Shown in pieces: positions 33,174-38,385 of a DNA stretch of 64,000 nt. The notes under the pieces are model-generated. The model made no database searches. It was not told the origin of the DNA and worked only from the letters and a program-made list of their open reading frames with translations. This DNA comes from Psychroflexus gondwanensis ACAM 44 (GTDB taxonomy: Bacteria; Bacteroidota; Bacteroidia; Flavobacteriales; Flavobacteriaceae), in NCBI RefSeq assembly GCF_000355905.1, contig NZ_APLF01000018.1, positions 1 to 64,000 of the forward strand, in the 5' to 3' direction. Positions within the stretch are counted from its first letter, which is position 1, and each line of letters starts with the position of its first letter. Position numbers and translations under genes: made by a program.

Positions 33174-33887
33174 ATGACACACACCTATAAAGTGACTGGC
33201 ATGACCTGCCAATATTGTAAAGCAAGCGTAAAAGAAGGGCTAGAACATCTAGAACACGTTAAGTCCGCTTCTGTTAATCTAGAAGCTGAGGAAGCTGAAA
33301 TTGACATGGAACAGCATATAGAAGTATCTACCCTCCAAGAAGCTATTTCAAAGAAATATCAGATCTCTAAAAAATCTGATTTTAAAGATACTTCGAGTGC
33401 AAATCTTCAAGAACAGTCTAAGTTTCAACAACTTTTCCCCTTGTTTCTAATCTTTGGATATATCACAGCGGCTTCAGTGCTATTGAATTCCACTTCTTGG
33501 GAATTGGATTCGTTTATGTTTGATTTTATGGGCCTGTTTTATATTGTTTTTAGTTTCTTCAAATTTTTGGATTATACAGGCTTTCCTGCTTCTTTTCAGA
33601 TGTACGATCCTTTGGCCAAAGTTCTTCCAGCCTATGGTTGGATATATCCGTTTTTAGAAACTGCCTTAGGCTTGATGTTCTTGTTAAGATTCGAGATTGA
33701 TATAGCTTTAGTAACAACAATTATCATTTTAGGAATAACAACCATAGGGGTAACCAAATCTCTGTTTTCTAAGAAAACTATTAAATGTGCGTGTTTGGGA
33801 ACAGCACTCAACTTGCCAATGACAGAAGCCACCTTTATAGAAAACACTATAATGCTCGTAATGGCAGTATGGATGTTGGCGATTTAA
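33174..33887 (+). CDS. HMA copper-binding domain fused to MauE/DoxX-like membrane domain
   Basis: The 237-residue product has an N-terminal heavy-metal-associated domain with GMTCQYCK (Cys12, Cys15) spanning about residues 1-68. Four transmembrane helices of the MauE/DoxX type follow (about 85-237), ending with CACLGTALNLP, a thiol motif typical of MauE-like proteins. Likely binds copper at the membrane or supports redox of the metal site; this is inference. Last gene of the metal operon; its stop overlaps the convergent dinB stop by 4 bases. Confidence 0.82.
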   Translation: MTHTYKVTGMTCQYCKASVKEGLEHLEHVKSASVNLEAEEAEIDMEQHIEVSTLQEAISKKYQISKKSDFKDTSSANLQEQSKFQQLFPLFLIFGYITAASVLLNSTSWELDSFMFDFMGLFYIVFSFFKFLDYTGFPASFQMYDPLAKVLPAYGWIYPFLETALGLMFLLRFEIDIALVTTIIILGITTIGVTKSLFSKKTIKCACLGTALNLPMTEATFIENTIMLVMAVWMLAI

Positions 33888-34972
33888 AACGGTAGTTTCA
33901 ATTGTTCTTCTTTCAATTTTGGGGTGACCTTTGGTGTTTTATCAGTGTTGAGGTTAGAAAGAGAAATACCCAGTAAGCGTATGGAGTCTTTAATAGGCTC
34001 TTGAAAAAGTAAAGCCTTGGTTTCTTCCATGATCAAGGCTTTGGAGGAAATGAAGAATTTTAAGGTTTTACTTCGTGTTTGAATATTGAAATCGCTAGTT
34101 TTTAGTTTTAGGGTAATGGTTTTCCCAGCAACTCTACTTCCCTTTAATCGTCTTTCAACTTCTTCTGCTATATCTTCGAGCTTTTCTAGCATATAAATTT
34201 CAGAAGAAATATTTTCTGAAAATGTTCTTTCGGCCCCTAGAGATTTTCGGATTCGACTAGGTTTTACTTCACTTAAATGAATCCCGCGGACTACATTAAA
34301 ATAATGTAGACCACTTTTTCCAAAGTGGTCTTGTAAGTACTCCAAGGTTTTGAGCTTCAAATCGACTCCAGTAAAAATGCCTAAGCCATACATTTTTTCT
34401 TGAGTCACTTTGCCCACACCGTGAAACTTCCGAATGTCTAGCGTCTCTAGGAAACTGATAACATCTTCTGGCGGAATAGTTTTTTGGCCATTTGGTTTGT
34501 TGATGTCACTGGCGATTTTTGCGATAAATTTATTGATAGAAATACCCGCCGAAGCGTTAAGCCCAGTCCTATCTTTTATCTTCTTTCGTATTTCCCTTGC
34601 TAAAATAGTGGCGCTGGGATAGTCAAATTTATTGACGGTTACATCCAAATAAGCTTCATCGAGAGACAGGGGTTCCACCAAATCGGTATATTCAAAAAAG
34701 ACTTTGCGGATGATTTGTGAAATTTCTTTGTAGCGCTCAAACCGTGGTTTTACAAAAATAAGATGGGGACATAATCTAGCCGCTAGCCGGCCACTCATCG
34801 CGCTTTTTACACCAAACTTTCTAGCTTCATAACTAGCCGCGGCTACAACACCGCGTTTGGAACTTCCCCCAACGGCCAGAGCTTTCCCAGATAAAGAGGG
34901 ATCATCTAGCTGCTCTACAGAGGCATAGAAAGCATCCATGTCTACGTGTATAATCTTGCGAAGATGTTCCAT
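33884..34972 (-). CDS. dinB: DNA polymerase IV (DinB)
   Basis: Y-family translesion polymerase. The 362-residue product has HVDMDAFYASVEQ at the N terminus, the catalytic EPLSLDEAYLDVT near residue 100, a helix-hairpin-helix thumb and a little-finger domain. It ends in a short Lys/Leu-rich tail (KEEQLKLPF) that looks like a beta-clamp binding peptide. ATG at 34972 is preferred to ATG 34981 or TTG 34987 because a -7 box (34985-34992) overlaps or abuts the latter two. The non-coding repeat array lies directly upstream. Confidence 0.9.
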   Translation of the reverse strand: MEHLRKIIHVDMDAFYASVEQLDDPSLSGKALAVGGSSKRGVVAAASYEARKFGVKSAMSGRLAARLCPHLIFVKPRFERYKEISQIIRKVFFEYTDLVEPLSLDEAYLDVTVNKFDYPSATILAREIRKKIKDRTGLNASAGISINKFIAKIASDINKPNGQKTIPPEDVISFLETLDIRKFHGVGKVTQEKMYGLGIFTGVDLKLKTLEYLQDHFGKSGLHYFNVVRGIHLSEVKPSRIRKSLGAERTFSENISSEIYMLEKLEDIAEEVERRLKGSRVAGKTITLKLKTSDFNIQTRSKTLKFFISSKALIMEETKALLFQEPIKDSIRLLGISLSNLNTDKTPKVTPKLKEEQLKLPF

Positions 34973-34984
34973 AAAATCCATGAT

Positions 34985-34992
34985 CAAAAATA
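34985..34992 (-). promoter_or_regulatory. -7 box for dinB
   Basis: TATTTTTG on the minus strand, exact TAnnTTTG, 12 bases upstream of the chosen dinB ATG. It is immediately next to the repeat array, so the array forms the far-upstream region of this promoter. Confidence 0.5.
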
Positions 34993-35061
34993 CATAAAGC
35001 GAGGGAAAAGGGTTCTTAATAGGTCATTATAAAATTTTATTGATCTTTGAGTTTTCTTGGT

Positions 35062-35557
35062 AACTAAACTCTATAGATGTCAGGGCTCTGCCCCTCAAAC
35101 CTTATAATTATTTATGCTATTGAGATTACAGGGCTAACGCCCCTTTTTAATTTTGATCGTTTTCAAGGGATAGTAAAATAGGTGAGCAACATCCCTCAAC
35201 ACCATATAATCATTTATATTAAAGGAATTGCTGGCTCGCTAAACTCTATAGATATCAGGGCTCTGCCCCTCAAATTTTATAATCATTTATGCTATTGAGA
35301 TTACAGGGCTAACGCCCCGTTTTTTAATCTTAAACATTTATTATAGATTGTAAAATAGGGGAGCAACATCCCTCAACACCATATAATCATTTATATTAAA
35401 GGAATTGCTGGCTCGCTAAACTTTATAGATATCAGGGCTCTGCCCCTCAAACCTTATAATTATTTATGCTATTGAGATTACAGGGCTAACGCCCCTTTTT
35501 TAATCTTAAACATTTATTATAGATTTTAAAATAGGGGAGCAACATCCCTCAACACTT
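35062..35557. repeat. Family A repeat block 1
   Basis: Three head-to-tail family A units. Each has GGGCTCTGCCCC, then GGGCTAACGCCCC about 49 bases later, then AGGGGAGCAACATCCCT about 45-50 bases later, and usually GGAATTGCTGGCTCGCTAAAC. The first unit starts degenerate (taactaaactctatagatgt) and the third is cut short after the AGCAACA box. Unit-to-unit identity is high by eye. Confidence 0.8.
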
Positions 35558-35755
35558 TGCAATTATTATATTAAGGGGACCGTAGGCTAAACGTCTTTTT
35601 TAATTTTAATTATTTCTCTATTGTTTATAATATTAGGGGGCAGCGCCCACACATCTCAATAACATATAACAGAAAGACCTTATAGAGGGGCTTTAGCTCT
35701 GAAATCTGTCCTCGTAAATATTATTGAATTTTCAGAACTAACGCCCCTTTTTAAT
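35558..35755. repeat. Linker and family B repeat unit 1
   Basis: Begins with a linker (ttaaggggaccgtaggctaa) that recurs near 36187. Then one family B unit follows: GGGGGCAGCGCCCAC, AGAGGGGCTTTAGCTCT and CAGAACTAACGCCCC. The join to the previous family A unit is abrupt, directly after an AGCAACATCCCT box. Confidence 0.75.
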
Positions 35756-36041
35756 TTTGATCGTTTTCAAGGGATAGTAAAATAGGGGAGCAACATCCCT
35801 CAACACCATATAATCATTTATTAAAGGAATTGCTGGCTCGCTAAACTCTATAGATATCAGGGCGCTGCCCCTCAAATTTTATAATTATCTATGCTATTGA
35901 GATTACAGGGCTAACGCCCCTTTTCTAATTTCTTAATTATTTTCTAGAGATTGTAAAATAGGGGAGCAACATCCCTCAACACCATATAATCATTTATATT
36001 AAAGGAATTGCTGGCTCGCTAAACTTTATAGATATCAGGGC
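35756..36041. repeat. Family A repeat block 2
   Basis: Family A returns with AGGGGAGCAACATCCCT at about 35785 and 35961. One first-type box changed in its loop (GGGCGCTGCCCC, about 35860) and one GGGCTAACGCCCC at 35908 are also present. It ends at 36041 in the middle of a first-type box where family B sequence takes over. Confidence 0.75.
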
Positions 36042-36622
36042 TTTTATAGAGGGGCTTTAGCTCTGAAATCTGCCAATTTAAATATTAAGGAGATCACAGT
36101 CCTGACGCCCTTTTTTTAATTCTAATCATTTTTCAGAGGTTGTAAAATAGGGGAGCAACATCCCTCAACATTTTACAATTATTATATTAAGGAGACCGTA
36201 GGCTAAACGCTCTTTTTAATTCTGATTATTTTTTCTATCGTTAATAATGTTATGGGGCATCGCCCACACGTCTTAATAACATATAACAGAAAGACTTTAT
36301 AGAGGGGTGTTAGCCCTGAAATCTGTCCCCGTAAATATTATTGAATTATCAGAACTAACGCCGCCTTTTCAATTCTAATTTTTTCTGTTGTTTATAACAA
36401 TAGGGGGCATCGCTCACACATCTCACTAACCCATAACAGAAAGAGCTTATAGAGGGGCTTTAGCTCTGAAATCTGTCCTCGTAAATATTATTGAATTATC
36501 AGAACTAACGCCCCTTTTCAATTCTAATTTTTTCTATTGTTTATAATATCGGGGGCATCGCCCACACATCTCAATAACATATAACAGAAAGAGTCTGTAG
36601 AGGGGTGTTAGCCCTGAAATCT
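36042..36622. repeat. Hybrid unit and family B repeat block 2
   Basis: Starts with a family B box (AGAGGGGCTTTAGCTCT) fused to a family A unit. A degenerate GTCCTGACGCCC, an AGCAACATCCCT box and the shared linker follow. After that come three family B units with period 148-150. The middle hairpin of family B alternates between GGGGCTTTAGCTCT and GGGGTGTTAGCCCT. Confidence 0.75.
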
Positions 36623-36726
36623 ACCAATGTAAATTGAAGCAGTCATAATAAAGACTAACTATAGTTTTGCCGACAAAATGAATAGATTTTAAATAAACCT
36701 GCATAGTAGCTAATTGTCAAGCTGAA

Positions 36727-38385
36727 TTAAATTCCTTTAGGAATGGCATCAATGAGATGTTTGGTGTAGTCTTTTTTAGGGTTTGCATAGACGATATCAG
36801 CGTCGCCTTGCTCCACAATTTTGCCTTGGTGCATGACCAAAAGTTGATCTGCCATGTACTTGACCACCGCCAAATCATGGGAAATGAAAATATAGGTAAA
36901 TCCAAAATCGGTTTTCAATTCATTGAGGAGGTTCAATACCTGCGCTTGGACAGAAATGTCTAAAGCCGAGACCGACTCATCGCAAATGATGAGTTTAGGT
37001 TGCACAGCAATGGTTCTTGCAATCCCAATACGTTGTCGCTGCCCGCCGCTAAATTCATGCGGATACCTGTTAAAGTGAGCTTCAGACAAGCCTACGCGTT
37101 CCAGAAGTTCAATTGTTTTTTGTTTTCTAGATGTAGCATTGCCATATAATCCGTGGACTTTCATAGGTTCCATGATGGCTTTGCCAACCGAAAGTCTTGG
37201 GTTTAAACTAGAAAATGGATCTTGAAAAATAAGTTGGATATCTTTTCTCAGTTGCCTTAAGGCCTCTCCTTTAAGGTGAGTAATAGGGTGACCTTGGTAT
37301 AAGATTTCACCTTCTGTAGGATCATTGAGCCTAAGAATGGCATTGCCTAAAGTGGATTTTCCACAGCCAGATTCACCAACAAGTCCAAGGGTTTCCCCCT
37401 GATAAATTTTAAAACTTACTCTGTCGACAGCCTGTATTTTTTCGGTTTTTGAAAACCAACCCGAGTTGGAAAAAAAGGTTTTACTTACATTCTTAATTTC
37501 TAGTAATGGTGGTTTCGAATAGATCCTTTCATGCCTTTTTTGTCTCTCTTCTGAAGTTTCTATTTTAGAATTTGGAATATCCTGCATAAAGTCCTTAACT
37601 GTTGGTAAAGACTTAAGTCGTTCACTGGTAGAGGGTTTTGAGGCTAAAAGCGCCTTGGTATATAGATGCTGTGGAGTTTTGAAAATAGAAACCACATCGT
37701 TCTGCTCTACGATTTCTCCTTGATACATGACTGCAACCCGATCTGCTAGTTCTGAAACTAAAGCTAGATCGTGAGAAATAAAGAGAATACCCATTTGAGT
37801 TTCCTGCTGGAGAGATTTCAACAAGGTTAAAATCTCCTTTTGGACAGTAACGTCTAGAGCAGTTGTAGGCTCGTCTGCTATTAAGAGTTTTGGTTTGCAG
37901 GCAATGGCCATAGCAATCATTACTCTTTGCTTTTGACCTCCACTTATTTGGTGAGGATAGCTTTCAAAAATGTCATGGATTCGGGGTAGCTTTACCTTTT
38001 CAAAAAGGCTTAAGACCTCTTGTTTTGCTTTGGATTTAGACAGCTTTTTATGCCGAATTAAAACTTCCGCAACTTGTTTCCCACACGTCATAGAAGGATT
38101 TAAAGAACTCATAGGTTCTTGGAAAATCATTGAAATATCGTTCCCTCGAATGCTCTGGAATTGCTGCTCGGTACATTTTGTGAGGTCTCGATCTTGAAAT
38201 AGAATCTCTCCCTCAACCTGAGCTTTGGGTCCTAATAAACCTAAAATAGACAAGGTAGAAACTGATTTCCCGGAGCCAGACTCGCCTACAATACCTAAAA
38301 TCTCGTTGGGTTGTAACTGAAAGTCGATGTTTTTGATCACTCTTTCGTCACCAAAACTGACTTGAAGGTTTTTTACATTTAGCAT
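36727..38385 (-). CDS. Fused oligopeptide ABC transporter ATPase (DppD-DppF type)
   Basis: Powers peptide or related solute import. The 552-residue product contains two complete ABC domains. The first (about 1-260) has [13 protein letters not shown] and [14 protein letters not shown]. The second (about 295-550) has [15 protein letters not shown] and [14 protein letters not shown]. Each ends with an oligopeptide_ABC C-terminal extension. The matching permease and binding-protein genes are not in the window, so the substrate is unknown; GsiA- and YejF-type proteins have the same fused plan. The start overlaps the exonuclease stop by one base. Confidence 0.92.

Follow-up and report, generated by a model that had tools for sequence, protein, structure and literature searches.

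The window, a 64,000-nucleotide stretch of DNA from Psychroflexus gondwanensis ACAM 44, harbours a repeat-rich tract between two genes on the minus strand. One is dinB (33884–34987), coding for a Y-family DNA polymerase with Pfam IMS domains, and the other (36727–38385) codes for a protein with two ABC ATPase domains, likewise found by Pfam. In the gap, at 35062–36636, lies a real repeat array of about 1.56 kb. Its 21 boxes belong to two unit families that interleave, and no open reading frame inside it is longer than 45 amino acids. A preliminary description had placed a non-coding array of some twenty short hairpins with two periods at this position, and all these points were borne out. Tandem Repeats Finder detected a period of 177 bp (35064–35555) and one of 150 bp (36228–36622), and gap-free repeat families gave spacings of 175–178 and 148–150 bp. 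To count the boxes, we trained a matrix on 65 boxes drawn from eight loci (L167–L169, L171–L173, L175 and L181). None of these stems from the window, and circularity is thus avoided; seven of the loci carry a Y1 transposase gene, and the eighth, L168, is the end of contig C25, which bears boxes. The matrix found 21 boxes of at least 8 bits in the region 35001–36700 (at 35073–36624), whereas 60 dinucleotide shuffles yielded 0.30 on average and never more than 2, and the rest of the window 0.16 per 1.7 kb.

According to the same matrix, 16 of the 21 boxes are arranged in eight dyads, while five are single and four of those degenerate. P dyads consist of two plus boxes spaced by 48 bp (35073–35143, 35248–35318, 35425–35495 and 35850–35920), and Q dyads of two minus boxes spaced by 50 bp (35637–35709, 36254–36326, 36404–36476 and 36552–36624). 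The hairpin spacing of about 50 bases described earlier is seen within the dyads; distances between them are irregular. The single boxes are located at 35536–35558 (minus, degenerate, 8.1 bits), 35725–35747 (plus, degenerate), 36051–36073 (minus), 36089–36111 (plus, degenerate) and 36492–36514 (plus, degenerate). Plus boxes prevail on the left and minus boxes on the right; at 14 bits the order reads ++++++--++-------. The stems are short, typically GGGC/GCCC with four pairs. When six oligonucleotides (five from the window, one C1 box) were folded as DNA, energies ranged from -1.5 to -3.8 kcal/mol with z scores from -0.5 to -2.4, and in several window boxes the stem is disrupted by sequence changes. 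The earlier term GC hairpins is generous.

A box can be written as AGATNNCAGGGCKN1-5GCCC. With the strict search pattern AGATNNCAGGGCKN{1,5}GCCC we retrieved 39 copies from the 3.3-Mb genome, and none with the reversed control pattern. The window array accounts for eight of them, the surroundings of a Y1 transposase gene on contig C1 for 25, and the end of contig C25 for six. A search with the whole array, which returned only the self-match in this genome, had suggested that the repeats are unique to the window; the short-box search overturned this. The genome-wide count and the search for a RAYT gene that had been proposed thus led to a transposase gene with most of the strict boxes, albeit not one of the class 2 RAYT type. 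Among 27 genomes of the genus, 39 is also the maximum of strict boxes, degenerate copies being outside this count. The end of C25 (16,781 bases) probably abuts C1, as both contig ends (G000:C25:16479-16781 and G000:C1:1-361) lie inside the same 51-bp-spaced box array. This array probably broke the assembly, so that the one at the transposase gene would be longer than seen.

Among 126 unique boxes selected by their stem alone, 99 carry AGAT at positions -8 to -5. Outside this genome the figure is 65 of 89; some of the loci sampled had been retrieved through similarity to the window. NTCA prevails at positions -4 to -1. Across 21 stretches, neighbouring boxes have the same orientation in 140 cases and are inverted in 15; 81 of the 140 same-orientation spacings measure 48–54 bp, 40 of them exactly 51 bp. 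The boxes are a REP-like family of the genus Psychroflexus, to which the named relatives of dinB also point. The loops of the strict boxes in the window array are of the CTCTG/CGCTG and CTAACG kind, which is common in other species too, and differ from those beside the transposase gene in the same genome, mostly CTACG or CTAAAG. This suggests that the window array preserves an older box type.

The transposase gene (C1:1779-2237), in the following called TnpA, encodes a protein of 153 amino acids with the motifs WQ (WQN) and YILNQPEHH. It scored 76.8 bits with the NCBIfam model for IS200/IS605 family transposases (cut-off 55) and 35 bits with the REP-associated model, which is under the cut-off of 80. 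Its AlphaFold model (pLDDT 89) matches the TnpA structures of ISDra2 and IS608, and more weakly that of the E. coli TnpA-REP (4er8). A close clade of proteins at least 72% identical occurs in seven genomes, each with a single copy at a conserved place beside the same DAHP synthase/chorismate mutase gene (Pfam). Palindromes stand beside all seven genes: in the 1.5 kb past the DAHP neighbour we counted, at a cut-off of at least 12 bits, 22 boxes in P. gondwanensis, 12 in G025, 21 in G009, 13 in G006, 7 in G007, 11 in G026 and 10 in G015. All seven proteins (L031, L147–L152) have DHTH as their HuH motif, with threonine in place of a bulky hydrophobic residue. Because DHTH stands where DH[IV]H would be expected, the activity of TnpA is uncertain, and we speak of a subclass-1.2 type, assigned by motifs. 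The dN/dS ratio between P. gondwanensis and G025 is 0.08, the only usable value of 15 computed pairs, since the other 14 had a dS above 2 or were saturated. The G007 copy is split into two reading frames near its start. A PIN-domain gene and an upstream DUF6364 gene, resembling a toxin-antitoxin pair, adjoin the TnpA array (G000:C1:455-1132, L031:75-752).

Fifteen of the 27 genus genomes possess a relative of the transposase (E 1e-10); boxes are present in 13 of these 15 and in none of the other 12, counts that are not independent given the common ancestry of the genomes. Six box-bearing genomes, G002, G003, G010, G012, G013 and G016 (1, 29, 4, 1, 5 and 1 boxes), have only distant TnpA relatives (35–56% identical). 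At the orthologous TnpA place, three genomes that lack a TnpA match there carry boxes, ten in G003 and a single one in both G013 and G002; the other 17 genomes have neither boxes nor TnpA. The sequences suggest that G003, G013 and G002 lost the gene and retained relic boxes; no relic boxes point to such a loss at this place in G010, G012 and G016. The ten-box array of G003 (L274) lies beyond the DAHP synthase gene and likely represents boxes that outlasted the gene.

Further Y1 proteins are encoded in the P. gondwanensis genome. A second transposase of the subclass-1.2 type (G000:C17:47762-48220; L032, L163) is 50% identical and carries a DHIH motif. It has its own palindrome, TAGTCCCTAACGGGACAA, for which 14 of 15 genome matches (up to two mismatches) fall around the gene at C17:47095-49282 and one on C9. 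A third copy (G000:C16:9915-10325; L033, L166) is apparently broken near its 3′ end and flanked by CCCACGGTTTAAACCGTGGG-like palindromes. The Y1 proteins at G000:C9:364790-364969 (L034) and G000:C20:24095-24451 (L035) have NP-type Y motifs (YIHDNP and YINTNP) and, by motif, are class 2.

The array shares traits with several known systems. As in REPtrons, that is REPs with a TnpA-REP/RAYT of TnpA_Y1 class 2, palindromes cluster at a vertically kept, low-copy Y1 gene and further copies occur elsewhere. Here, however, the class 1 motif YILNQPEHH replaces the Y---NP motif of class 2. Like canonical REPs the boxes are short extragenic palindromes: 186 of 205 boxes of at least 14 bits, including all 17 of the window array, lie outside open reading frames of at least 100 amino acids. 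Canonical REPs have GTAG or CGTC at the foot of the stem, and the AGAT tag sets the boxes apart from both families; REPs also usually exceed 100 copies per genome according to one account (PMC2817692), compared with 39 strict boxes here. In BIMEs regularly spaced REPs alternate in orientation, whereas same-orientation neighbours dominate among the boxes. REPIN clusters, as described by Bertels and Rainey 2011 (PMC3116915), likewise have paired palindromes as the unit and form tandem clusters that include flanking sequence, but a REPIN is an inverted doublet that forms one long hairpin, while the two boxes of a dyad have the same orientation at a distance of 48 or 50 bp, and neighbour spacing peaks at 51 bp. 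Because it departs from canonical REPs, BIMEs and REPINs in at least one tested feature each, the array is not classed as a REP array even though it works like one. With IS200/IS605 elements (subclass 1.1) the system has the fold, the expected single-strand chemistry and subterminal hairpins in common; those elements are multi-copy and near-identical, in contrast to the single close-clade copy at a conserved place in seven genomes. The motifs mostly fit TnpA_Y1 subclass 1.2, whose marks in Quentin et al. 2018 (PMC6006769) are WQ, Y---Q--HH, DH[IV]H, about 148–150 amino acids, low copy number and occurrence in Bacteroidota. TnpA agrees in all of these except DHTH. In Table 1 of that paper the subclass has a "no" for REP, whereas boxes surround the gene here. 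The earlier idea of a REP/BIME-like array expanded by a transposase in trans stands insofar as the same boxes flank a Y1 gene on another contig and unit numbers differ from a sister species; the missing GTAG foot and the head-to-tail order speak against its literal form. It should be noted that all seven close-clade genes have palindromes alongside, as expected for REPs mobilised by TnpA, whereas the window array itself has no such gene.

Of 80 named dinB loci, six have the ABC gene within reach, and the other 74, L036 included, gave no ABC match. In four named species (L039–L042) the gap is near-empty with 106, 104, 52 and 14 bp. In two others it is occupied by other genes, 776 bp in L037 and 1425 bp in L038. 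These gaps (L037:3700-4500, P. sediminis; L038:3050-4500, P. montanilacus) additionally contain a different repeat, CCGTGACC...CGTGGTGAAAT, and for this reason the dinB-ABC gap seems to be a recurrent landing place. A long match to the array turned up in just one of the 27 genus genomes, G025, where it occupies the same place; as a rule 13 candidates per genome were scored in this search, and the dinB gap was inspected in a minority of unnamed relatives. The two sister genomes are 92.6% identical in dinB and 93.8% in part of the ABC gene. Their dyad numbers differ (P 4 versus 1, Q 4 versus 6 in P. gondwanensis and G025). P dyads are 89% alike within P. gondwanensis and 81% alike to G025; the values for Q dyads are 81% within P. 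gondwanensis, 87% within G025 and 80% between them. G026, inferred to be P. tropicus (L040), has TnpA and nevertheless a gap of only 104 bp; TnpA alone does not yield an array.

Taken together, we consider it rather likely that the array is made up of REP-like palindromes of the kind found around the subclass-1.2-type TnpA. As an orphan cluster it would have entered the gap before the split from G025, multiplied locally and begun to decay. Judging from fold, motifs and co-location, TnpA would recognise the tag and the short hairpin on single-stranded DNA and move or copy boxes. One or more dyads of 48–50 bp would then have inserted into the short dinB-ABC gap before the G025 split, a timing derived from the occupied site common to P. 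gondwanensis and G025 and the near-empty sites of the four named species. Dyads and spacers would subsequently have multiplied as units of 175–177 and about 150 bp, differently in the two species, by TnpA or by slippage and recombination, and the stem-breaking changes point to ongoing decay of the boxes. We infer that TnpA seeded the array and that transposition built it, while recombination may well be behind the later growth of units; to this extent the recombination suggested earlier finds a likely place. Recombination alone after a single insertion accounts for the multiplication step equally well. This reading is favoured by the strict box common to the window array and the TnpA surroundings, which with the contig end account for all 39 copies. 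Further points in its favour are the 21 boxes found by a matrix from other loci, the confinement of boxes to genus genomes with a TnpA relative, the boxes at all seven close-clade genes, the low dN/dS, the fold of TnpA, the short gaps in L039–L042, the unequal dyad numbers of the two sister genomes and the greater likeness of P dyads within P. gondwanensis than to G025. Against it stand the six box-bearing genomes without a close-clade TnpA, the short gap of G026 despite its TnpA, the weak hairpins, the DHTH motif, and the Q dyads, which are no more alike within P. gondwanensis than to G025.

The array could instead be the relic of a former TnpA locus, in which TnpA and its flanking boxes once stood between dinB and the ABC gene and only the boxes were kept. 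The TnpA-less boxes of G003, G013 and G002 set a precedent, and the plus boxes on the left and minus boxes on the right could have flanked a gene. Still, we deem this unlikely, as contig C18, on which the window lies, matches neither Y1_Tnp at E 0.01 nor TnpA at E 1e-10, the G025 array is TnpA-less as well, and no species was found with TnpA at the dinB-ABC place. It is also quite improbable that a chance palindromic stretch grew into a plain satellite by slippage and unequal recombination, with TnpA uninvolved. Although the 177- and 150-bp units include long spacers, as tandem duplication predicts, and unit numbers differ between the sister species, the box with its tag is found again near TnpA in seven genomes and scattered over various sites in other genomes, which a chance origin fails to explain.

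We regard it as highly improbable that the array is a functional element, i.e. a transcribed structured RNA, an attenuator or a regulatory region of dinB or the ABC gene, even though it sits between two co-directional genes, so that read-through of the ABC message would transcribe it, T runs follow some of the plus-strand boxes, and 13 promoter-like sites compare with 8.9 (sd 2.8) in shuffles. An Rfam scan of the array gave only three matches, all under the gathering score and none approaching it, which rejects a known structured RNA, and there are no terminator-like sites (1.6 in shuffles); the structured transcript considered earlier is thus unsupported. Just upstream of the likely dinB ATG (34981), sequence comparison revealed an TATTTTTG element (34985–34992, minus strand). 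We take it to resemble the Bacteroidota -7 promoter box. Of 12 sequences compared, 9 have it beside the start of dinB, among them six named species (L036–L041) that lack the array at this site. Accordingly, the view of the array as an upstream control region of dinB did not hold, and such a role appears unlikely. Moreover, the make-up of the array differs between the sister species. With no sign of a host function, the array is probably a by-product. A phage origin was rejected because none of 50,697 phage records matched, and a CRISPR array because its spacers would be non-repetitive, whereas those here are themselves repeated within the 175–177- and 150-bp units.

REPs of subclass 1.2 are undescribed among the matches listed for the open-access literature, and the accessible text of the RepRanger paper (PMC12306157) contained no mention of RAYT, TnpA or Psychroflexus. 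We surveyed the best-scoring Bacteroidota relatives of the gene together with Pfam Y1_Tnp matches (L187–L270) and 18 genus loci, a sample of best matches and not a random one. From 102 loci, 13 with short sequence or flanks and three duplicates were removed; L150, L160 and L165 were not entered. Classes were assigned from the Y-motif pattern alone. Hairpins were called recurrent when at least three shared the same 5-bp stem within 1 kb either side; because a measure based on perfect 6-bp stems misses the 4-bp stems of Psychroflexus, 5-bp stems and repeated 12-mers were used too. Recurrent hairpins flank 19 of 56 subclass-1.2-type loci outside the genus, the other 37 having none at this threshold, and 10 of 16 within it, as well as one of six unclassified loci and none of eight with the subclass-1.1 pattern, a small and impure control in which L232 and L265 are near the 1.2 pattern. 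L232 has four copies of a palindrome core. The background gave 2 of 1117 overlapping and 0 of 278 non-overlapping windows. As these windows from dinB loci are mostly coding, we added a comparison matched for non-coding share, with 9 of 19 loci versus 0 of 100 windows (23 loci) at a share of 0.20–0.35, and 5 of 30 loci versus 3 of 2353 windows at 0–0.20. Palindrome cores such as CCCTACGGGA and TCCTACGGAG top the enriched 10-mers across 61 loci; each occurs in 8–9 loci versus 0.1–0.3 expected. At 24 of its 26 sites, the sequence TTTGTAG[CA]AA is preceded by a hairpin at most 32 nt away on the 5′ side (0 of 14 in the background), and it had looked like a strong phylum-wide tag. A recount by locus weakened this, since L223 alone contributes 18 of the 26 sites and just 5 of the 61 loci have any site.

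It is an even question, in our judgement, whether a second REP system spanning the Bacteroidota is built around subclass 1.2, with lineage-specific GC-rich palindromes, mostly in local arrays and occasionally in orphan arrays such as that at dinB. A shared tag, the hairpin followed by TTTGTAG[CA]AA, would be a weaker addition to such a system. The matter is of interest because this transposase type had been listed as REP-less. If the proposed relationship is true, domesticated transposases are partnered with palindromes of their own not just in class 2 but also in the IS200-like class 1, and a protein subclass without a known partner would gain a testable substrate. The window array would then be a datable fossil, with a near-empty site in relatives, an occupied one in two sister genomes, and later turnover of its units.
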